This document shows positions 13,493 to 32,915 of a DNA stretch of 48,523 nucleotides, piece after piece. Made by a program: the position numbers and the translations under genes. Source of the DNA: Alkalibacterium thalassium (GTDB taxonomy: Bacteria > Bacillota > Bacilli > Lactobacillales > Carnobacteriaceae_A); the NCBI RefSeq assembly GCF_900101165.1, contig NZ_FNFK01000008.1, positions 14,782 through 63,304 on the forward strand, written 5' to 3'. Every line of letters starts with the position of its first letter. The stretch's first letter is position 1. The notes below the pieces were generated by a model. It ran no database searches. It had not been told where the DNA came from and saw only the letters and a program-made list of their open reading frames with translations.

Positions 13493-13590
13493 TCAAGCGG
13501 ATGCAGAGAAAAATCGCAAAACTACCGTTTCTTCGTCTGGAGGCAACATCCCATCCACCCAGCACTTAACGTTTTCCTCTTACTCTTTTT
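13493..13590 (-). ncRNA. THF (tetrahydrofolate) riboswitch aptamer
   Basis: On the minus strand the conserved THF-aptamer blocks occur in order: CGTTAAGTG, then GGATGGGATG in the P3 loop with CTGG/CCAG arms, ACGAAG, CGGTA, and TGCATCCGCTT. A helix pairs AGAGGAAAA with TTTTTCTCT. Transcription should begin about 13592, directly at its 5' edge. Just after the aptamer, AAAACT-GAAT-AGTTTT plus T residues (about 13494-13475) is a weak terminator-like hairpin that could be the expression platform. In Firmicutes this class controls folate transport and synthesis genes; here folT follows. Confidence 0.87.
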
Positions 13591-25173: not shown

Positions 25174-26421
25174 TTATTTAGTTAAGGTGTCTTTTTCGAC
25201 CTTGCCGTCCTTGACGACATATTGAATGGTATCGGTGTCCGCCAGGCTCGCAATGTCTTCGAGGGGGTCACCTTTAACGATGACAATATCAGCCAGTTTT
25301 CCTTTCTCAAGGGTGCCGACTTTGTCTTCCCATCCTAAACACTCAGCTGCCGTTTTTGTGGTAGCCACGATTGCTTCCATCGGTGTCATCCCCACATCGG
25401 TCATGAGTTCCAGTTCCCTTAAATTGAGTCCGTGAGGCATGACTCCAGCATCAGTACCCATAGCTATTTTAACTCCTGCTTTATGAGCTTTAGTGACACT
25501 TTCCTTGTGGATCTCAATGACTTCCTTGGACTTCTCTACAGCTGAATCAGGCATCCCGGATTCTTCAGCAAGTTCCAGAACGGATACTGGCGCCAGCAAG
25601 GTCGGTACCAGGAATGTTCCGTTTTCTTTCATCAGATCAATAGCTTCGTCATCCAGAAAGATGCCGTGTTCAATTGAATGGATGCCTGCCCGGACGGCCT
25701 GTTTGATCCCTTCAGCTCCCTGAGCGTGGGCCATGACTCGCACACCTTTTCTGAAACGTGCTTCTTCCACAATGACTTTCAGTTCTTCCAGAGAAAACTG
25801 GGTAAACTCCGGATGGTCGGTCGGGCTGAGTACGCCACCCGTCGCATGGACTTTAATGACCTCAGCTCCGGCACGAAGCAGTTCACGGACTTTCTTCCGG
25901 ACTTCTTCCACACCGTCTGCCCGCCCGTCAGGCATACCCGGATAATTGGCCTGAAGCAGTTCAACCGTCTGACCAGATGTAGTATAGCCATCACCATGTC
26001 CACCGGTGATCGTCAGTGCATTGATGCTCAGCTGCAGACGCGGACCGGCGATCAATCCTTCTTCCACAGCTTTCTTCACACCTAAATCTGCCCCTAATGC
26101 ATCTCTGACAGATGTGATTCCGGCATCCAGTGTCTTCCTCATATACTGGGCAGCCTGGTAAAATCTGTAGGAAAAAGGAGTCTCCAGTCGTTTCTGAACC
26201 CCTTCAAACTCCATCATGACGTGAACATGGGCATCGATAAGTCCTGGGAGGATGGTTCCTCCTCCGGCATCGACTATCGTTTCATCTCCAGTCAATGTGT
26301 ATCCTTCCGCTTCTCCTGCGTATAGCAAGGTGTTTCCTTCAAATACAAACAGCCCATCGCTGACCGGCTGTCCGCCAAGTCCATCAATTAGACGTCCGTT
26401 GTTTATAGCTGTTTTTCCCAT
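25174..26421 (-). CDS. Metal-dependent amidohydrolase (imidazolonepropionase/Xaa-Pro dipeptidase-like)
   Basis: A 415-residue cytoplasmic hydrolase of the amidohydrolase superfamily. The metal ligands appear in order: LIDAHVHVMME (two His), a KVHATGG lysine-histidine segment, VMAHAQG, SIEHGIFL and the late GTDAGVMPHG Asp. The C-terminal beta-sandwich half (KLADIVIVKGDPLEDI) is typical of imidazolonepropionase-like and prolidase-like members. Related enzymes act on dipeptides or small cyclic amides; the substrate cannot be read here. ATG start. It follows the amidase gene on the same strand after 133 bases. Confidence 0.85.
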   Translation of the reverse strand: MGKTAINNGRLIDGLGGQPVSDGLFVFEGNTLLYAGEAEGYTLTGDETIVDAGGGTILPGLIDAHVHVMMEFEGVQKRLETPFSYRFYQAAQYMRKTLDAGITSVRDALGADLGVKKAVEEGLIAGPRLQLSINALTITGGHGDGYTTSGQTVELLQANYPGMPDGRADGVEEVRKKVRELLRAGAEVIKVHATGGVLSPTDHPEFTQFSLEELKVIVEEARFRKGVRVMAHAQGAEGIKQAVRAGIHSIEHGIFLDDEAIDLMKENGTFLVPTLLAPVSVLELAEESGMPDSAVEKSKEVIEIHKESVTKAHKAGVKIAMGTDAGVMPHGLNLRELELMTDVGMTPMEAIVATTKTAAECLGWEDKVGTLEKGKLADIVIVKGDPLEDIASLADTDTIQYVVKDGKVEKDTLTK

Positions 26422-26554: not shown

Positions 26555-28003
26555 TTACTGAATAATCTGCTCCAGAGCATAGGCCAGTTCCATTAACAGG
26601 ACATCCTCTCCGGCCTGGCCGATAAGGGTTATGCCAATAGGCTCACCGGTTGCGCGAACATATCCAGGAACGGTGACTGCTGGATAACCGGATGCGGAAT
26701 AGATAGCGGTCGCATAATTACTTAATGTCAGAAGAACATCCACGGAGTCAAAGGCTTTTTCCAGTGCCTGTCGTGTAACCGTCTGATTGGATGTGATGAT
26801 CTGAGTGATGTCTTCAGCAGTCTCTTCAACACCGGCTGACTGAATCAGCAGCTCCTGATTGAAAGGGGCCGTCTGATCTTCCCCTTCTTCTTCATTGAAC
26901 GCTCTAATTTTCTCAAGAGTCAGTGGATGGGTCCGACTCTGATTGAAAAAAGACTTGATCCCTGTATTGAATTCATACTTCAGAACCGGAACATAGTCTA
27001 CTTCAAGTGCCTTTTCATCTAAAGAATACTCAGATGGGATCGCTCCGGCTTCTTTCAGCTTCTGCCGAACATCTTCTATTATTTCTTCGTCTTCTTCTCT
27101 ATAGAGGGACTTGATCGATTCGTTTTCCAGGATACCTGTTTTCACACCTTTAAATCCTGCTTCAGACCACTCTGCTTCTTCTGAAACTGCTGACGCCATT
27201 CCCTTAAAAAGCAGATACGTATCCTTGACTGTTTTCGCTATCGGTCCTGCAGTATCATGCGTTTTAGAAATGGGAATGATGCCGTCTTGAGAGACTAGAC
27301 CAAGTGTCGGTTTAAGTCCGACCACACCATTCTGACTGGCTGGATAGATGATAGACCCGGCCGTTTCCGACCCGACGGTAACAGGGGACAGGCTCAAGGC
27401 CGCAGCAGCGGCACTTCCTGCACTCGATCCTCCAACATCAAACTGTCCCAAGGGATGCATCGTCTGTCCACCTACTGCAGAATATCCATTGGAACTGTCA
27501 GTAGACATAAAATTTGCCCATTCGGTCAAGTTTGTTTTCCCCAGAATCAGTGCCCCCTTTTCTTTAAGAAGCTGGATAAGTTCTGCATCTTCCTCAGCTA
27601 TATAATCTCTAAGAACAGCAGCCCCCGCTGTAACAGGCATCCCCTTCACACTGATATTATCTTTAACGAGGACCGGCATACCATAAAGCAGGTCATGCTC
27701 GTCATCAAAGACCAGTTCTTCAGCCTCCTGAATAATAGTCTCATTCAGAGAGATGACCGCATTGTATCTTTTCTGCCTGATTGTTTCATTCCAAAAGCAC
27801 ATCGCAATTTCGGCGTATGTAGTTCTACCTTCTCTGACTAAATTCTGAAGTGTCTGTATATCGCTCGATAGAATCTCCCGTCTCAGTTCATCGCTCAGAT
27901 GATACTCTTCATGGTCCAGATCTAATTTATACCGACTCTTCTTCGTACGAATATGCTGCTTGTCTATCTGCCCCAAAAGATAGTCTTTACTGTTAAATCC
28001 CAT
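26555..28003 (-). CDS. Amidase-signature family hydrolase
   Basis: A 482-residue amidase-signature enzyme hydrolysing a carboxamide. The Ser-cisSer-Lys triad is recognisable: Lys in PVLVKDNI, the cis-Ser in GGSSAGSAAAA, and the nucleophile Ser in SETAGSI. The absence of gatC/gatB neighbours, and ETAGSI in place of the DTGGSIR of GatA, argue for a free-standing amidase rather than the tRNA amidotransferase subunit. The N-terminal 60 residues are an extra charged helical region. It sits between trpB and the amidohydrolase, both on the same strand; co-function is possible but unproven. Confidence 0.87.
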   Translation of the reverse strand: MGFNSKDYLLGQIDKQHIRTKKSRYKLDLDHEEYHLSDELRREILSSDIQTLQNLVREGRTTYAEIAMCFWNETIRQKRYNAVISLNETIIQEAEELVFDDEHDLLYGMPVLVKDNISVKGMPVTAGAAVLRDYIAEEDAELIQLLKEKGALILGKTNLTEWANFMSTDSSNGYSAVGGQTMHPLGQFDVGGSSAGSAAAAALSLSPVTVGSETAGSIIYPASQNGVVGLKPTLGLVSQDGIIPISKTHDTAGPIAKTVKDTYLLFKGMASAVSEEAEWSEAGFKGVKTGILENESIKSLYREEDEEIIEDVRQKLKEAGAIPSEYSLDEKALEVDYVPVLKYEFNTGIKSFFNQSRTHPLTLEKIRAFNEEEGEDQTAPFNQELLIQSAGVEETAEDITQIITSNQTVTRQALEKAFDSVDVLLTLSNYATAIYSASGYPAVTVPGYVRATGEPIGITLIGQAGEDVLLMELAYALEQIIQ

Positions 28004-28133: not shown

Positions 28134-29300
28134 CTAGTCAAAATCACCCGAGTCAAGCAGCTCCCGGACATAGGCCACATCTTTGTCTCCACGACCAGAA
28201 ATAGTGATGATCACAGGCTCTTCAGGAGAAAATTCATCCGCCAGTTTTTTTACTAAGGCGACAGCATGGGCACTTTCTAGCGCCGGAATGATTCCTTCAG
28301 TTTCGGACAAGGTCTTGAAGGCAGACATGACCTCTTTTTTTGATACTGTATAGTATTCAGCACGTCCACTGTCTTTCAGATGACTATGTTCAGGTCCGAT
28401 TCCCGGATAGTCCAGACCGGCAGCAATTGAATAGGTTGGTGCCGGGTTGCCGTTTTCATCCTGTAGGACAAGGGTTCTGAATCCATGCAGATCCGCCGCT
28501 TTTCCCTTGCTCATCGTCGCTGCTTCTTCAGGCTCCGCCCCGATTAGACGCACATCAGTATCTTCAATATAGTGAGCAAAGGAGCCAATCGCATTGCTTC
28601 CTCCACCGGCCACTGCAACAACCGCTGCAGGCAGCCTGCCTTCTTTTTCAAGAATCTGCTTCTTCGATTCCTCGCTGATCACTGACTGGAAATACTTGAC
28701 GATGGACGGATAGGGATGCGGTCCGACGGCTGAACCGAGGAGATAAAATGTGTGATCATAATTCTCGATCAGATCTCCTAGAGCGACATCAACGGCATCC
28801 TTCAACCGCCCTTGTCCTTGCTCGACAGGAACCACTTCTGCTCCGAGCAGCTCCATCCTGAATACATTGAGTGCCTGGCGCTCGGTGTCCAGTTTACCCA
28901 TATAGATCGTACAGTCCATACCAAACATCGCGCAGGCCGTCGCAGTCGCTACTCCATGCTGTCCCGCTCCTGTCTCTGCAATAATGCGATGCGCACCCAT
29001 TCGTTTGGCCAGAAGAATTTGTCCCACCACATTGTTTATCTTGTGCGCTCCTGTATGATTCAGGTCTTCTCTTTTAAGATAGATTTTCGGGCCGCCGAAG
29101 CGTTCTGACAACCGTTCGGCGTAGGTCAGGGGATTCTCTCTGCCGACATATTCTTTTAGAATCGACTGATATTCTTTCTTGAACGCGTCATCTTCTCTAG
29201 CCTCGTCAAAAGCAGCCTCAATCTTATCCAAAGCCGCCTGAAGGTTTTCAGGGACGAAACTGCCGCCAAATGTTCCAAAAAATCCTTTTGCTGTCTCCAT
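28134..29300 (-). CDS. trpB: Tryptophan synthase beta chain
   Basis: A PLP enzyme that joins indole to serine to make tryptophan. The 388 residues are of the TrpB1 type. The PLP lysine is Lys87 (HTGAHKINN) and the catalytic Glu is Glu109 (AETGAGQHG), the same numbers as in the enteric enzyme. The phosphate loop GGGSNAIG and the C-terminal SGRGDKD are intact, so it should be active. No trpA or other biosynthesis gene is nearby. It lies 52 bases after trpZ with no terminator, making it the fourth gene of trpXYZ-B. With imported indole it could supply tryptophan by itself. Confidence 0.95.
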   Translation of the reverse strand: METAKGFFGTFGGSFVPENLQAALDKIEAAFDEAREDDAFKKEYQSILKEYVGRENPLTYAERLSERFGGPKIYLKREDLNHTGAHKINNVVGQILLAKRMGAHRIIAETGAGQHGVATATACAMFGMDCTIYMGKLDTERQALNVFRMELLGAEVVPVEQGQGRLKDAVDVALGDLIENYDHTFYLLGSAVGPHPYPSIVKYFQSVISEESKKQILEKEGRLPAAVVAVAGGGSNAIGSFAHYIEDTDVRLIGAEPEEAATMSKGKAADLHGFRTLVLQDENGNPAPTYSIAAGLDYPGIGPEHSHLKDSGRAEYYTVSKKEVMSAFKTLSETEGIIPALESAHAVALVKKLADEFSPEEPVIITISGRGDKDVAYVRELLDSGDFD

Positions 29301-29352: not shown

Positions 29353-30132
29353 TTAAATAAGCTGGGCTTTTTCTTCTTCAAACAGAACAAACAGATCTTC
29401 CAGCGTCATTTGTGCTTTTTCACGGGCATTCAGATCAAGTTTGATTCTTCCATTTTCCAGAACGATCAGCCGATTGCCGTACTTCAGGGCATCTTCCATC
29501 CGGTGCGTGATCATCAGACAGGTAAGGTGATTGTCTTCAATGACCTCCTGTGTCAGTTCCATCAGCCGTTTTGCTGTTTTGGGATCCAGTGCAGCAGTAT
29601 GTTCATCCAGAAGCAGGAGCTCTGGATTTGTCAATGCAGCCATAAGCAGACTCAATGACTGTCTCTGCCCACCAGATAAATGCCCCGTAGGTGTATCTAG
29701 ATGTTTTTCAAGTCCATTTCCAACTGAGGCACACAGGTTTTGGAATGAGTCTCTTTGAGCCTTCAATTTTCTCGGCAGCAGATACCGCTTCTCCCCTCGT
29801 TTCATAGCGAGCAGCAGGTTTTCCGCTACCGTCATTCGTGGGGCAGTCCCCATTTTAGGATCCTGAAAGACCCGGGCGATATGACGTGCTCTTTTTTCTT
29901 CAGGTAGTCTGGTTACTTCCTTATCTTTAATGTAAAGCTTGCCGCTGGTCAGTTCGATCGTGCCGCTGATGCTGTTGAACAAAGTCGATTTCCCAGCGCC
30001 GTTTCCTCCAAGGACTGTAACAAACTCTCCTTTTCTGATGGTCAGATCGATATGATCTAGAATCGTCGTATTCTTATCGGATTCATTCTGGATCATTTTA
30101 GTTACCTGCTCTAAAGTCAGCAGTGTTGTCAT
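29353..30132 (-). CDS. trpZ: ABC transporter ATPase of predicted tryptophan importer
   Basis: The ATPase of a TrpXYZ-type uptake system (259 residues). Walker A is GGNGAGKST, the Q-loop lies in VFQDPKMG, the signature is LSGGQRQSLSL, Walker B is LLLLDEHTAALD and the switch His is in MITHR. The His within the Walker B stretch (EHTAALD) is characteristic of this subfamily. It starts three bases after the permease stop. Function as tryptophan import is inferred from family, the adjacent trpB and the Trp-coded leader peptide. Confidence 0.88.
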   Translation of the reverse strand: MTTLLTLEQVTKMIQNESDKNTTILDHIDLTIRKGEFVTVLGGNGAGKSTLFNSISGTIELTSGKLYIKDKEVTRLPEEKRARHIARVFQDPKMGTAPRMTVAENLLLAMKRGEKRYLLPRKLKAQRDSFQNLCASVGNGLEKHLDTPTGHLSGGQRQSLSLLMAALTNPELLLLDEHTAALDPKTAKRLMELTQEVIEDNHLTCLMITHRMEDALKYGNRLIVLENGRIKLDLNAREKAQMTLEDLFVLFEEEKAQLI

Positions 30133-30135
30133 GGC

Positions 30136-31011
30136 TTACCCCTCCTTCCTGATCAGTGTATCCAGTTTAAGCACCTGCCTGATTTGTGGGATCATCAGAC
30201 AGACAGCTAGTATGGATGCGCTGAATAACCTGATATAAGTCGTATCGAAGCCAAGTCTTATTACACCGAGAAGAAGTAGCTGATACAAAATGCTTCCGAT
30301 GACGATGGAAATCAGTCGTTCGCCCAGAGTCACGTCCTTGAAGGCCACTTCCCCAATAATCAGTGAAGCCAGCCCGATGACGATGACACCAGTTCCTCCA
30401 TTAACATCCGCATAGCCATTATTCTGAGCAATGAGAGAGCCTGCCAGCGCAATGATTCCGTTGGAAAAGACGAGCCCTATAATTTTCATGCGGTCTGTCT
30501 GAATGCCGAACGATCGAGCCATTGCTTCATTGTCTCCTGTCGCAATATAGGCCTGACCCAAGCTGGTGTAGAAGAAAAACAGTAGCAGACCAATCACCAG
30601 ACTGACTACCACTAGACCGACCACTACTGCGTCGAAATAATTGGGTAAAAAGGCCAGGCCGTTAAAGATTCTTGGATGATTTAAAAGACTCAGGTTCGGA
30701 CGCTGCATCACATACAGCATCACGGAATGCAGTGCCGTCATAACTAGAATGCCGGCAAGAATAACTGGGACTTTTCCTTTCGTATACAGGAGACCCGTTA
30801 CCAGACCCGCGCTCATCCCAGCTAGAACTGCCAGCACCATAGCCAATACGGGAGGCAGTCCATTGACAATAGCTGTAACGGCGACCGCAGCTCCTAAAGG
30901 AAATGAGCCTTCTACTGTCAGATCCGGAAAGTTCAGAATCCGATAAGTTGTGAAAATGCCGATGCCGAGCACTGCCCAAAGCAGCCCCTGTGCAATTGCT
31001 GATATGACCAT
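30136..31011 (-). CDS. trpY: Permease of predicted tryptophan importer
   Basis: A 291-residue membrane permease with about eight predicted helices, of the TrpY/ribose-type branched permease family. Conserved stretches include YRILNFPDLTVEGSFPLGAAV near the N-terminus and GDNEAMARSFGI, followed by the VFSNGIIALAGSL helix. The frame is open to 31056 inside trpX, but the ATG at 31011 has GAGGG at the right distance and leaves a 16-base gap, so I prefer it. Partner genes are trpX upstream and trpZ downstream. Confidence 0.88.
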   Translation of the reverse strand: MVISAIAQGLLWAVLGIGIFTTYRILNFPDLTVEGSFPLGAAVAVTAIVNGLPPVLAMVLAVLAGMSAGLVTGLLYTKGKVPVILAGILVMTALHSVMLYVMQRPNLSLLNHPRIFNGLAFLPNYFDAVVVGLVVVSLVIGLLLFFFYTSLGQAYIATGDNEAMARSFGIQTDRMKIIGLVFSNGIIALAGSLIAQNNGYADVNGGTGVIVIGLASLIIGEVAFKDVTLGERLISIVIGSILYQLLLLGVIRLGFDTTYIRLFSASILAVCLMIPQIRQVLKLDTLIRKEG

Positions 31012-31027
31012 AAACTGATTCCCTCTC

Positions 31028-32083
31028 TTATTCCCTAGTTTCGATGATGACGGCATCCTCCAGAATAGATTCTGGAATGGTGACGTTCAAATGTTCCGCT
31101 TTCTCCTGGTTTACCAGAATATCCCCTTCACTCAGGACAAAAACAGGGAATGTACTCGGGTCTTGTCCGTTCAGTACTTCTGCAGCCATCCGACCTGATT
31201 CGATCCCCATCTGCTTCTGATTGATTCCAACTGTGACCAGCCCACCTTGAGCGATCATCAGATCGACTGTCGGAATCAGCGGCATGTCGTAACGGTCCGC
31301 TTCACTGACCACGGTGTCGAATGCACTTGCTATCGTATTGTCAGTCGGAAGGTAGATCACATCGACTTCCTGAGACATGGATGCAACCATCTGCTGAATA
31401 TCATTCGTACTTGATACCGTATAAGTGACCGGTTCAAGCCCCATAGATTCAATCACTTCTGTCGCTCGTTTTGCTTCAGCCCTGGAATTGTCCTCACCTG
31501 AACTGTATAACAGCCCGATCGTTGAGGCTTCCGGAAGAACGGCATTCATCAGCTCCAGCTGAGCTTCGACCGGTGCTTGATCCTTCACACCTGTGACATT
31601 CGTTCCCGGCTCGTCTTCTGACTCCACCAGACCGGCACCGATTGGATCGGACACGGCACCCATGATGATTGGAATCTCACTGGTTGCATTGGCAAACGCC
31701 TGGCTAGCCGGCGTCCCGATACCGATCAGCAGGTCTGCCCCGTCTTCAACAAGAGCTTGCGCCATCGTGTTCATCAGGTTCTGATCCCCTTGAGCATTCT
31801 GAAAGTCGATCTCTGCGTTCTCTCCTTCCACATAGCCATGTTCAGCCAGCCCTTCGATTGCCCCCGCCGTAATTTCGTCCAGTGAGGGATGGCTGGTGGT
31901 CTGTAGAATACCAATTCTTACTGTTCTCTGTTCTTCATTCTCAATACCTGCTTGTTCGCTTCCGTTATCGCTCCCGCTATATGTAGCCGTGTCGTTATCT
32001 GAACTAGTCAGCGAGGCAACAAAGACTCCGATAAGTAAAACTAGAATAGCTCCTAAAGTGATGATTATACCTTTTCTTTTCAT
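31028..32083 (-). CDS. trpX: Substrate-binding protein of predicted tryptophan importer
   Basis: The receptor of the TrpXYZ system, 351 residues of the ABC_sub_bind (DUF534-type) family. An N-terminal hydrophobic helix (about 7-25) follows KRK, but there is no lipobox Cys, so it is probably membrane-anchored rather than a lipoprotein. A Ser/Asp/Glu-rich linker leads to the two-lobed domain starting RIGILQTTSHPSLDEI. GIGTPASQAFA, PIIMGAVSDPIGAGLV and VIYLPTDNTIASA are typical of the family. The GAGAGG site lies about 11 bases before ATG. It is the first gene after the Trp leader and is overlapped by a small W-D-W reading frame. Confidence 0.88.
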   Translation of the reverse strand: MKRKGIIITLGAILVLLIGVFVASLTSSDNDTATYSGSDNGSEQAGIENEEQRTVRIGILQTTSHPSLDEITAGAIEGLAEHGYVEGENAEIDFQNAQGDQNLMNTMAQALVEDGADLLIGIGTPASQAFANATSEIPIIMGAVSDPIGAGLVESEDEPGTNVTGVKDQAPVEAQLELMNAVLPEASTIGLLYSSGEDNSRAEAKRATEVIESMGLEPVTYTVSSTNDIQQMVASMSQEVDVIYLPTDNTIASAFDTVVSEADRYDMPLIPTVDLMIAQGGLVTVGINQKQMGIESGRMAAEVLNGQDPSTFPVFVLSEGDILVNQEKAEHLNVTIPESILEDAVIIETRE

Positions 32084-32162
32084 GATTGATTGGTCCTCTC
32101 TTAATTAGATTTATCCGTTTGTCAGTCAGTTTTTTATTTCGCCAGTCCCAGTCAGATTCCAT
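32004..32162 (-). CDS. Possible second leader reading frame with W-D-W
   Basis: A 52-codon frame starting at an ATG nine bases after AAAGGAG. Its first residues are MESDWDWRNKKLTDK, with Trp at codons 5 and 7. It runs through the trpX ribosome site and stops about 80 bases inside trpX in another frame. Ribosomes held at the Trp codons would leave the trpX start uncovered, while freely moving ones would cross it. The ribosome site and paired Trp codons are suggestive, but there is no independent support. Confidence 0.35.
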   Translation of the reverse strand: MESDWDWRNKKLTDKRINLIKRGPINHEKKRYNHHFRSYSSFTYRSLCCLAD

Positions 32163-32228
32163 CTGCATCCACTCCTTTAATTAAGACTCATTTGACTGAA
32201 GATTTTTTCCCATCCATTCCTAGCGGTA

Positions 32229-32278
32229 CAAAAAAAGGCAATTTCCACGAATTGAATCGAATCGTGGAAATTGCCTTA
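32229..32278 (-). terminator. Second trp-leader terminator (segments 6:7)
   Basis: A perfect 14-base-pair stem, GGCAATTTCCACGA with TCGTGGAAATTGCC, followed by seven T residues on the minus strand. It lies downstream of the first attenuator and 150 bases before trpX, so transcription must pass it for the operon to be expressed. Confidence 0.92.
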
Positions 32279-32280
32279 AG

Positions 32281-32417
32281 ATAAACAAAAACCACATAGA
32301 TAACTTATCATCTATGCGGTGTAAAAAAATCCTCGTCAAAGTGAGCCGGCATAGATACAAAATTTAGATTTGTTCTAAACGTTGTATCTATGAAAGAAAG
32401 TCTTCATCTATACAACG
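32281..32417 (-). promoter_or_regulatory. trp attenuator with alternately pairing segments
   Basis: Segments on the minus strand: 1 CGTTGTATAGATG (32405-32417, end of leader peptide), 2 CATAGATACAACG (32380-32392), 3 TTGTATCTATGCCGG (about 32346-32360), 4 ACCGCATAGAT (32310-32320), 5 ATCTATGTGGT (32291-32301). Possible helices are 1:2 (8+5 pairs), 2:3 (11 pairs), 3:4 (10 pairs with one bulge) and 4:5 (11 pairs, then TTTTTGTTT, a terminator). Segments 1:2 and 3:4 exclude 2:3 and 4:5. Segment 5 can also pair weakly with the left arm of the next terminator. Confidence 0.82.
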
Positions 32418-32478
32418 ATCTGCGCCAGCTGTTCCAAGCCATATTCAGTTGTCTGGATTGAGCAGATCGTGTAAGCAT
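32404..32478 (-). CDS. trp operon leader peptide (24 residues, two Trp)
   Basis: Starts at an ATG five bases after GGAAGG (AAAGGAAGG) and about 32 bases after the predicted transcription start. It encodes a 24-residue peptide with MAWNSW at residues 13-18, thus Trp15 and Trp18, and its last codons and stop (32404-32406) form attenuator segment 1. A ribosome waiting at the Trp codons leaves segment 1 free, while one reaching the stop covers it. This is the layout of a ribosome-mediated attenuator ahead of tryptophan-related genes. The peptide itself probably has no other function. Confidence 0.82.
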   Translation of the reverse strand: MLTRSAQSRQLNMAWNSWRRSLYR

Positions 32479-32516
32479 ACTGACCTTCCTTTCGTCTGTT
32501 TTTTAATGTGATTCTC

Positions 32517-32545
32517 ATACTACACCTATGAAATGGATCCGTCAA
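32517..32545 (-). promoter_or_regulatory. trp operon promoter
   Basis: TTGACG (32540-32545), a 17-base spacer and TAGTAT (32517-32522) on the minus strand, placing the transcript start near 32510. Confidence 0.78.
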
Positions 32546-32915
32546 CATCTTTTTTGAGAAATTTAAACTGATTTCAATTTTTTTAAATCACTGGTGGCCA
32601 GAAGGGGATTATACTGTATGTAAATCAATCTCTTTCTTTTTCCTGCTGTCCGGCCTGTTTCAACTGAGTCGGTAAAGAAAACTTCTTCAAAGCTGTCTGT
32701 CCACTGCTTGTCCTCCTGTTATTTCCTCTACTTTTACTTATGCATAATATAATATCTAATAAAACTGTTTTAATAAATTTATGTAAAAAGTATATACTGA
32801 ACATTTCCTACTTATCAAGTTATTTCAGACAACCTTTATTTTTATTCCTTCATGTTTTCTTTTTTACCAGACATGTTAAACTTGGAAAGAGAGCAAAAGA
32901 AAGGTTTGACACATT
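32546..32915. other. AT-rich divergent intergenic region
   Basis: 370 bases between the trp promoter and the FAD oxidoreductase gene. It is AT-rich, especially 32740-32800, and should hold the plus-strand promoter, but I cannot pick one confidently. No gene, hairpin or repeat is convincing. Confidence 0.5.

Follow-up and report, generated by a model that had tools for sequence, protein, structure and literature searches.

A putative ribosome-mediated Trp attenuator before trpXYZ-trpB of Alkalibacterium thalassium and its relatives with His, Phe/Tyr and Leu leaders

The leader region of trpXYZ-trpB in Alkalibacterium thalassium is very probably a ribosome-mediated transcription attenuator that senses charged tRNA-Trp via translation of a short leader peptide. 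The region lies on the minus strand of a 48,523-nucleotide stretch of contig NZ_FNFK01000008.1 (assembly GCF_900101165.1; the whole stretch is called the window below), and its core is the RNA catalogued in Rfam as RF04312, the trpB ncRNA motif. The anatomy of the locus, its conservation and the match between leader codons and downstream genes are directly observed. A single RNA chassis (RF04312 plus a leader) would take its specificity, i.e. Trp, Phe/Tyr, His or Leu, from the codon run. We also consider it likely, with somewhat less assurance, that this is one homologous chassis in Lactobacillales and Clostridia, re-addressed by codon-run swaps with matching downstream-flank changes that keep the codon-zone helix, and that it acts as a three-partner attenuator, open only with a ribosome on the regulatory codons.

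Anatomy of the leader region

The features of the locus, in the order in which they would be transcribed, are as follows (window positions).

32517-32545, minus: promoter-like site TTGACG-17-TAGTAT, 9 of 12 consensus matches, weak alone
Upstream of the leader ORF, minus: SD-like sequence AAAGGAAGG
32404-32478, minus: leader peptide ORF of 24 codons, MLTRSAQSRQLNMAWNSWRRSLYR, with Trp15 at 32436-32434, Trp18 at 32427-32425 and stop codon TGA at 32406-32404
32418-32430, minus: segment 0, which includes Trp18 and has 3L as its partner when no ribosome is present; new here
32403-32416, minus: segment 1, which overlaps the stop codon and pairs with segment 2
32381-32394, minus: segment 2, partner of 1 or 3 and 5' arm of RF04312 P1
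32280-32394, minus: RF04312 match, segments 2 to 5, 65.6 bits (gathering 59)
32344-32360, minus: segment 3 with its 3' flank (L), together 3L, with three partners (0, 2 and 4)
32308-32320, minus: segment 4, which pairs with 5 as the 5' arm of terminator 1 or with 3 in the antiterminator
32291-32303, minus: segment 5, the 3' arm of terminator 1, with a T-rich run behind it
32235-32277, minus: terminator 2, formed by segments 6 and 7; a T-run continues from it as far as about 32229
31028-32083, minus: trpX, tryptophan ABC transporter substrate-binding protein (NF041285, 406.8 bits, cut-off 390)
30136-31056, minus: ABC permease in the trpY position (PF02653)
29353-30132, minus: ABC ATPase in the trpZ position (PF00005)
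28134-29300, minus: trpB, tryptophan synthase beta subunit (TIGR00263, 559.5 bits, cut-off 392.45)

A first-pass annotation made from the letters alone had described the promoter, the 24-codon ORF with Trp15 and Trp18 and a set of alternating segments, and all of these are present where it placed them on the minus strand. Sites that match the promoter consensus at this level number six, against 2.3 expected. Segment 1 begins eight bases after the Trp18 codon rather than the "about seven" given there, and the CATAGAT/ATCTATG core from which all segments were said to be built recurs in segments 2 to 5 and, with one change, in segment 1, but not in segments 6 and 7. The alternating pattern itself is no product of chance, as is evident from the RF04312 score, from matches in 11 of the 12 genomes sampled in the genus, among them that of the window, and from helices that are better natively than when re-paired.

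Helix 0:3L joins 32430-32418 to 32356-32344 with 12 of 13 positions paired (-15.7 kcal/mol), and helix 1:2 joins 32416-32403 to 32394-32381 through 11 pairs around a 2x2 internal loop (-10.9 kcal/mol). The remaining helices are 2:3 (11 bp, -12.6 kcal/mol), 3:4 (8 bp, -7.5 kcal/mol), 4:5 (13 bp, -16.7 kcal/mol), 5:6 (4 bp, -5.7 kcal/mol, as weak as the first reading had judged it) and 6:7 (16 bp, -25.3 kcal/mol). A pattern scan of 32100-32900, which reaches loops of up to 8 and is blind to 6:7 with its loop of 11, returned 4:5 as the sole terminator-like site (0.2 expected). Terminator 4:5 and antiterminator 3:4, the latter the weakest of the main helices, are predicted to be mutually exclusive.

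In the mechanism that we propose, 3L would have three competing partners. With no ribosome on the codons, zone 0 would pair with 3L around the 1:2 hairpin, segment 3 would be locked and terminator 4:5 would form. When Trp is plentiful, a ribosome at the stop codon would cover 0 and 1, the free segment 2 would take 3, and 4:5 would again form. When Trp is scarce, the ribosome would wait on Trp15 or Trp18, covering 0 and leaving 1 free; 1:2 would then form, the free 3L would pair with 4, and polymerase would read into trpXYZ-trpB. Terminator 6:7 may be passed likewise through the weak 5:6. The starvation response and the real order of co-transcriptional folding are what we infer here.

Several other features of the window were seen. 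A second small ORF with Trp codons (32162-32142, minus) lies between terminator 2 and trpX; in the window's family the motif M-x-[STA]-D-W-[DEN]-W with an SD is found in 14 of 16 readable Trp loci (L001 to L017 minus the duplicate L008; the ORF is absent from L003 and L011), and its start codon mostly lies inside a palindrome, CAGAT-NNN-ATCTG. This ORF could be a second, translational Trp sensor; a search for a conserved structure of it with the trpX ribosome site found none. After trpB, on the same strand, come an amidase-like ORF (26555-28003, minus; below curated cut-offs) and an amidohydrolase-like ORF (25174-26421, minus; assigned by eye), either of which may belong to the transcript. A THF riboswitch aptamer lies at 13493-13589 (minus, 67.2 bits). 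Matches in the window to the Rfam families CopA, rox2, a miRNA, and Enterococcus EF3314_EF3315 and RefA1 were all below gathering and were rejected.

Helix conservation and folding by ribosome position

We read 264 loci: 145 RF04312 hits and, among the matches listed, 119 pattern hits, drawn from at least 119 found by a genome scan for the P1 core in which the leader was not used. The RF04312 hits comprise 22 from the family, 67 from the order, 17 from the class or phylum, and 21 and 18 from two clostridial samples; the order's 67 consist of 27 taken automatically and 40 picked by genus before their leaders were seen, and 9 more of the order's matches came in with the class sample. Removal of 9 exact duplicates (leaving 255) and of 30 repeats between the two sets gave 225 distinct loci; in these repeats the anchors are one base apart, 30 of the 119 listed pattern hits being the same places as RF04312 hits. 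For the helix tests 13 loci were dropped as false by eye (RF04312 hits L058, L059, L061, L065, L066, L089, L123, L265, L272 and L273; pattern hits L183, L200 and L242), together with L145 and L228, where no terminator or ORF was placed, and L210 and L229, which have no called leader; of the 255 loci 238 remain, 150 of them at less than 80% identity.

Across these 150 loci the native duplex energies of 0:3L, 1:2, 2:3, 3L:4 and 4:5 beat 500 of 500 between-locus permutations, a test that is inflated by shared ancestry. Two pairings outside our proposal, of the codon zone with 2 and of the segment-1 zone with L, likewise outdid each of 200 permutations when all loci were taken together, with z of -5.7 and -8.7, to be set beside -16 to -34 for 0:L, 1:2, 2:3 and 4:5 and -7.8 for 3:4; within the Phe/Tyr loci 3:4 was matched by 11 of 500 permutations.

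The first-pass annotation had a ribosome choose between 1:2 with 3:4 and 2:3 with 4:5, and every one of these helices is present. Its scheme lacks 0:3L, and without this helix one would expect read-through of transcripts that carry no ribosome. Helix 0:3L is better native than permuted, in 129 and later in 150 non-redundant loci, both overall and within each class tested (Trp, Phe/Tyr and His). The conserved GGCU or GGUU after P1 pairs with the regulatory codons. Judged from the sequences, 0:3L covaries in the Phe/Tyr class: across 45 loci 90.2% of cells are paired, with two-sided changes at 8 of 11 pairs (48 cells), compared with at most 47.6%, 7 pairs and 27 cells in slid controls and at most 82.7% paired in shuffled columns. 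The 0:3 part beside the stop codon is nearly invariant in this class (91.5% vs 91.2% shuffled) and so carries no covariation support of its own. The covariation is thin in the Trp class, a point in favour of the scheme without 0:3L: in 83 loci 77.9% of cells are paired (no slid control above 44.0%, no shuffled one above 75.7%), the two-sided changes at 9 pairs and 59 cells hardly exceed the 6-8 pairs and 16-44 cells of slid versions, and 28 pair types were counted where one slid version has 31. The Rfam structure of RF02863, a family discussed below, draws the same outer helix around 1:2. On this evidence we regard the scheme without 0:3L as unlikely and retain the three-partner reading.

The favoured fold for each ribosome position was computed. 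The RNA left free ahead of the ribosome was folded up to the end of segment 4, with the leading edge of the ribosome 12 nt beyond the A-site codon's first base; the calculation is an equilibrium one on truncated RNA and not one of co-transcriptional kinetics. In the window the predicted probability of 3:4 is 0.74, 0.78, 0.86 and 0.77 with the A site at codons 15 to 18, 0.49 at codon 14, 0.16 at codon 19, 0.10 at codon 20 and 0.00-0.02 from codon 21 on, with a lower bump of 0.35-0.42 at codons 5 to 7; it is 0.008 once the ribosome stands at the stop codon, and ribosome-free RNA gives 0.05.

Over the 150 loci the mean values at the best stalled position, at the stop codon and in free RNA are 0.39, 0.08 and 0.15; by class they are 0.48, 0.10 and 0.19 (Trp), 0.28, 0.03 and 0.07 (Phe/Tyr), 0.33, 0.06 and 0.13 (His), and 0.27, 0.01 and 0.20 (Leu, 5 loci). 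The best stalled position exceeds the stop codon in 134 of 150 loci and free RNA in 141, and fails to do so in 16 and 9, respectively. When the codon zone and segment 1 were shuffled the three means fell to 0.05, 0.04 and 0.04, and the best position still exceeded the stop codon in 97 of 150 loci, so it is the sizes of the differences that count and not the tallies of loci. Footprints of 9 and 15 gave the same picture. The regulatory codons outrank on average 79% of the other placements on the ORF, not all of them; the value is small by the final codon of the run in three classes (0.08 for Phe/Tyr, 0.08 for His and 0.01 for Leu), and the Leu class (n=5) stands barely above its upstream background (0.28 vs 0.17-0.22). 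On average, then, and by folding, a stalled ribosome is predicted to favour the antiterminator and a ribosome at the stop codon is not.

A second terminator-like hairpin, as described for the window in the first reading, is common elsewhere: Trp loci have it in 44 of 83 cases, Phe/Tyr loci in 29 of 44, Leu loci in 2 of 5 and His loci in 1 of 17 (8 of 1490 shuffles). At L021 and L098 the scan behind these counts shows a short first stem that is wrong or partial. Because many loci have none, 6:7 is best seen as an add-on. Helix 5:6 is better than 500 permutations in 76 loci (mean -9.17 vs -6.76), with the same caveat of shared ancestry.

Leader peptides and the genes that follow them

A blind rule was used to call leaders, namely an SD-led ORF of 8 to 40 codons that ends near P1, with a codon run defined as at least two Trp, HHH, at least four Phe/Tyr, or LLL within the last 14 codons. 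An SD-led short ORF lies upstream of 137 of the 145 RF04312 hits, compared with 16.9% of shuffled upstream regions, and 101 of the 145 have a codon run, compared with 1.2% of shuffles. For the 119 listed pattern hits the numbers are 114 and 109 (shuffles 16.9% and 1.1%); without repeats they are 133 and 97 of 141 RF04312 hits, and 84 and 80 of 89 listed pattern hits. Loci dropped from the helix tests stay in these counts. Trp makes up 140 of 1162 residues in frame, against 8 and 3 in the other two frames, and His 65 of 238, against 3 and 8, figures to be read beside the shuffle counts since the frame had been chosen by score. Class counts likewise lean on a scoring that favours codon-run ORFs, whereas the shuffle comparison applies one rule to real and shuffled regions alike; the blind caller chose a wrong overlapping ORF at the window, L002, L070 and L176. 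A short SD-led ORF that looks translated hence appears to be a regular feature before the terminator.

The codons of the leader agree with the genes downstream, as listed for the 225 distinct loci with gene clusters named from representatives. Trp leaders (n=121) precede TrpX-like genes in 112 cases, TrpB in 5, a symporter in 1, an unrelated ORF in 1 and no ORF in 2; the single symporter locus, L223, was classed as Trp on one Trp codon, lies before a symporter of the Phe/Tyr clade and was kept in the counts. His leaders (n=25) precede HisZ/HisS-like genes in 18 cases (representatives L053, HisZ-like and below cut-off, and L126, HisS and over cut-off), amino-acid ABC proteins in 3 and 2, a permease by eye in 1 and no ORF in 1, so that each of the 24 with a downstream ORF has behind it either a hisZ/hisS-like gene (18) or a transport gene (6, one of these by eye). 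The 8 Leu leaders are followed by sodium symporters (6) or no ORF (2). The 55 Phe/Tyr leaders are followed by binding proteins (11), symporters (21), ABC-permease-like proteins with weak family matches only (11), livcs carriers (8), AroE (1), a false match (1) or no ORF (2). The other 16 of the 225 listed loci, mostly false matches, have no called leader or one of another kind.

Seen from the genes, the 125 distinct TrpX-like loci have 112 Trp leaders, 11 Phe/Tyr leaders and 2 uncalled ones (L092, whose ORF has Trp but no strict SD, and L210, cut at a contig end), and a Trp leader stands at each of the 5 loci immediately before TrpB. Relatives that keep the helices and lose the Trp codons, which the annotation had named as a refutation, are hence not the pattern found, and its reading of a Trp-codon attenuator is supported by the comparative evidence. 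A tree of 86 non-redundant binding proteins separates the Trp-linked (75) from the Phe/Tyr-linked (11) by one branch, with 1 change of leader class vs 10.5 when shuffled; in a tree of 31 symporters the 9 Leu-linked ones lie on one side of one branch, with 2 changes vs 9.0. The Phe/Tyr-linked binding proteins of L019, L020, L021, L056 and L060 score 289, 319, 320, 384 and 269 bits, all below the TrpX cut-off of 390, and the Trp-linked ones of L055, L077, L062 and L005 score 468, 476, 465 and 406 bits, which like the window's 407 pass it. By these comparisons the regulatory codons appear to be those of the amino acid that the operon handles.

Two arrangements were seen among these loci. In one genome a Trp attenuator with a TrpX-like gene (L097, contig position 58375) and a Phe/Tyr attenuator with aroE (L098, 55393) share a strand and are separated by about 3 kb. 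At L023 a mobile-element reverse transcriptase-like ORF (by eye), 439 bases after the Trp attenuator, replaces trpX.

The codon-gene match bears on the published view of RF04312. The paper that introduced the motif reports more than 900 examples in Firmicutes and Fusobacteria and rates it a strong riboswitch candidate without a known ligand, the authors' working guess, while leaving a classic attenuator open (Nucleic Acids Res. 2024, PMC11109978). On such a reading RF04312 would bind a metabolite, tryptophan or an amino-acid-related ligand, with the P1 hairpin as aptamer and the ORF incidental, and the conserved letters that the Rfam consensus has within P1 would fit an aptamer. The same core, however, stands before Trp, His, Phe/Tyr and Leu genes with ORF codons that track the gene, the SD-led ORF recurs as counted above, and pairing with the codon zone accounts for the conserved bases that follow P1; we consider a riboswitch very improbable. 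The window element and the published model share segments 2 to 5; the model is without segments 0 and 1 and without the leader peptide, which was left out because the model starts at segment 2.

A TnaC-like arrest peptide, in which a nascent W-Q-S/N-W would sense free Trp in the ribosome tunnel, has in its favour the W-Q that 68 of 83 Trp leaders retain. The S/N, the second Trp, the Arg and the stop codons (though not the Gln codon) are explained by pairing with 3L, in which the W-R-R-stop codons of Trp loci take part, and the N-termini of the leaders vary. In Leu leaders the same AGCUA sits in a different reading frame, so it is the RNA rather than the peptide that is kept, and we find an arrest peptide scarcely credible. 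The W-x-x-W that had been expected to be conserved in homologous leaders is found in 53 of the 83 non-redundant Trp leaders; a further 29 carry only one Trp. A Q-L-N or similar stands a few codons before the regulatory codons in many Trp and Phe/Tyr leaders (e.g. L005, L020 and L110), and L-N occurs anywhere in the leader in 30 of 83 Trp and 27 of 45 Phe/Tyr loci.

Control by a T-box or TRAP, or plain constitutive terminators, is hardly to be entertained: a tested T-box acts on trpX in Streptococcus suis (PMC9382623) and elsewhere in this genome T-boxes are matched 15 times (6 over cut-off), but the leader and alternative helices are conserved, RF00230 has no match in the window at gathering and none in 32080-32560 at E up to 10, and the TRAP gene (PF02081) was not found in the one genome searched (a draft, 99% complete), with a positive B. 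subtilis control.

Distribution and relation to known systems

At E ≤0.001, RF04312 is matched in 19 of the 27 genomes from the window's family (11 of them over gathering), 160 of 295 of the order (52 over gathering), 20 of 398 of the class (11), 5 of 398 of the phylum (2), 1 of 5 in the family of G323, and 12 of 59 and 20 of 391 in a distant clostridial group (none over gathering); the genome samples overlap, and matches outside the order are mostly below gathering and some are false.

From the codon zone onward, some Phe/Tyr versions fall under a second Rfam family, RF02863 (Enterococcus sRNA 2410). This family is above gathering at 2 of 11 scanned Phe/Tyr loci, L098 (the same as the overlapping L097) and L060, and has no match in the window at E up to 10. 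We tie it by name alone to sRNA_2410 of E. faecium, an RNA of 195 nt reported from RNA-seq and Northern blot with two transcripts (Sci Rep 2017, PMC5593968) and described in the part of that paper available to us as an sRNA, not a leader. The two transcripts would fit two terminators or read-through, and the reported Enterococcus sRNA is probably a terminated leader.

As far as our literature searches go, the union of RF04312 and RF02863 in one attenuator class is new, as are the Trp, Phe/Tyr and Leu forms and helix 0:3L. In the open-licence literature a search for the trpB motif by names and codes returned PMC11109978 alone, and no description of the Trp, Phe/Tyr or Leu versions was recognised. 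Our reading offers an answer to the orphan riboswitch candidate RF04312: the molecule to test would be charged tRNA, acting through the ribosome, and not a small ligand. It also suggests that leader-peptide attenuation is a broad, re-programmable mechanism in Firmicutes, where T-boxes are expected, and it offers clues to function (Trp, His, Phe/Tyr, Leu) for downstream transporters whose annotation is poor. Leader attenuators for branched-chain amino acids are reportedly known from Staphylococcus and Listeria.

The T-box (RF00230) acts on the same genes in a relative, S. suis trpXYZ (PMC9382623), and shares with the proposed mechanism the logic by which uncharged tRNA gives read-through; in the window element it is the ribosome that would read the codons. 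His leader attenuators in Firmicutes, reported in 2010 (PMC2965389) and 2022 (PMC9413887), share runs of His codons before hisZ/hisS, and the latter paper includes Terrisporobacter among its examples; two Terrisporobacter his loci carry the present element (L174 and L196). These reports concern his genes, and the portions available to us connect them neither with the trpB motif nor with Trp, Phe/Tyr or Leu leaders nor with 0:3L.

Viewed as a whole, the class shares with enteric trp and his attenuators, a type described in PMC9413887, a leader peptide with regulatory codons, the position of the ribosome picking terminator or antiterminator. RF00514 (trpL) has no match in the window, and the class as we read it differs from the enteric one by two extra segments: its codon zone would pair with the far-downstream 3L, and a second hairpin pair (1:2 and 2:3) would read the ribosome at the stop codon.
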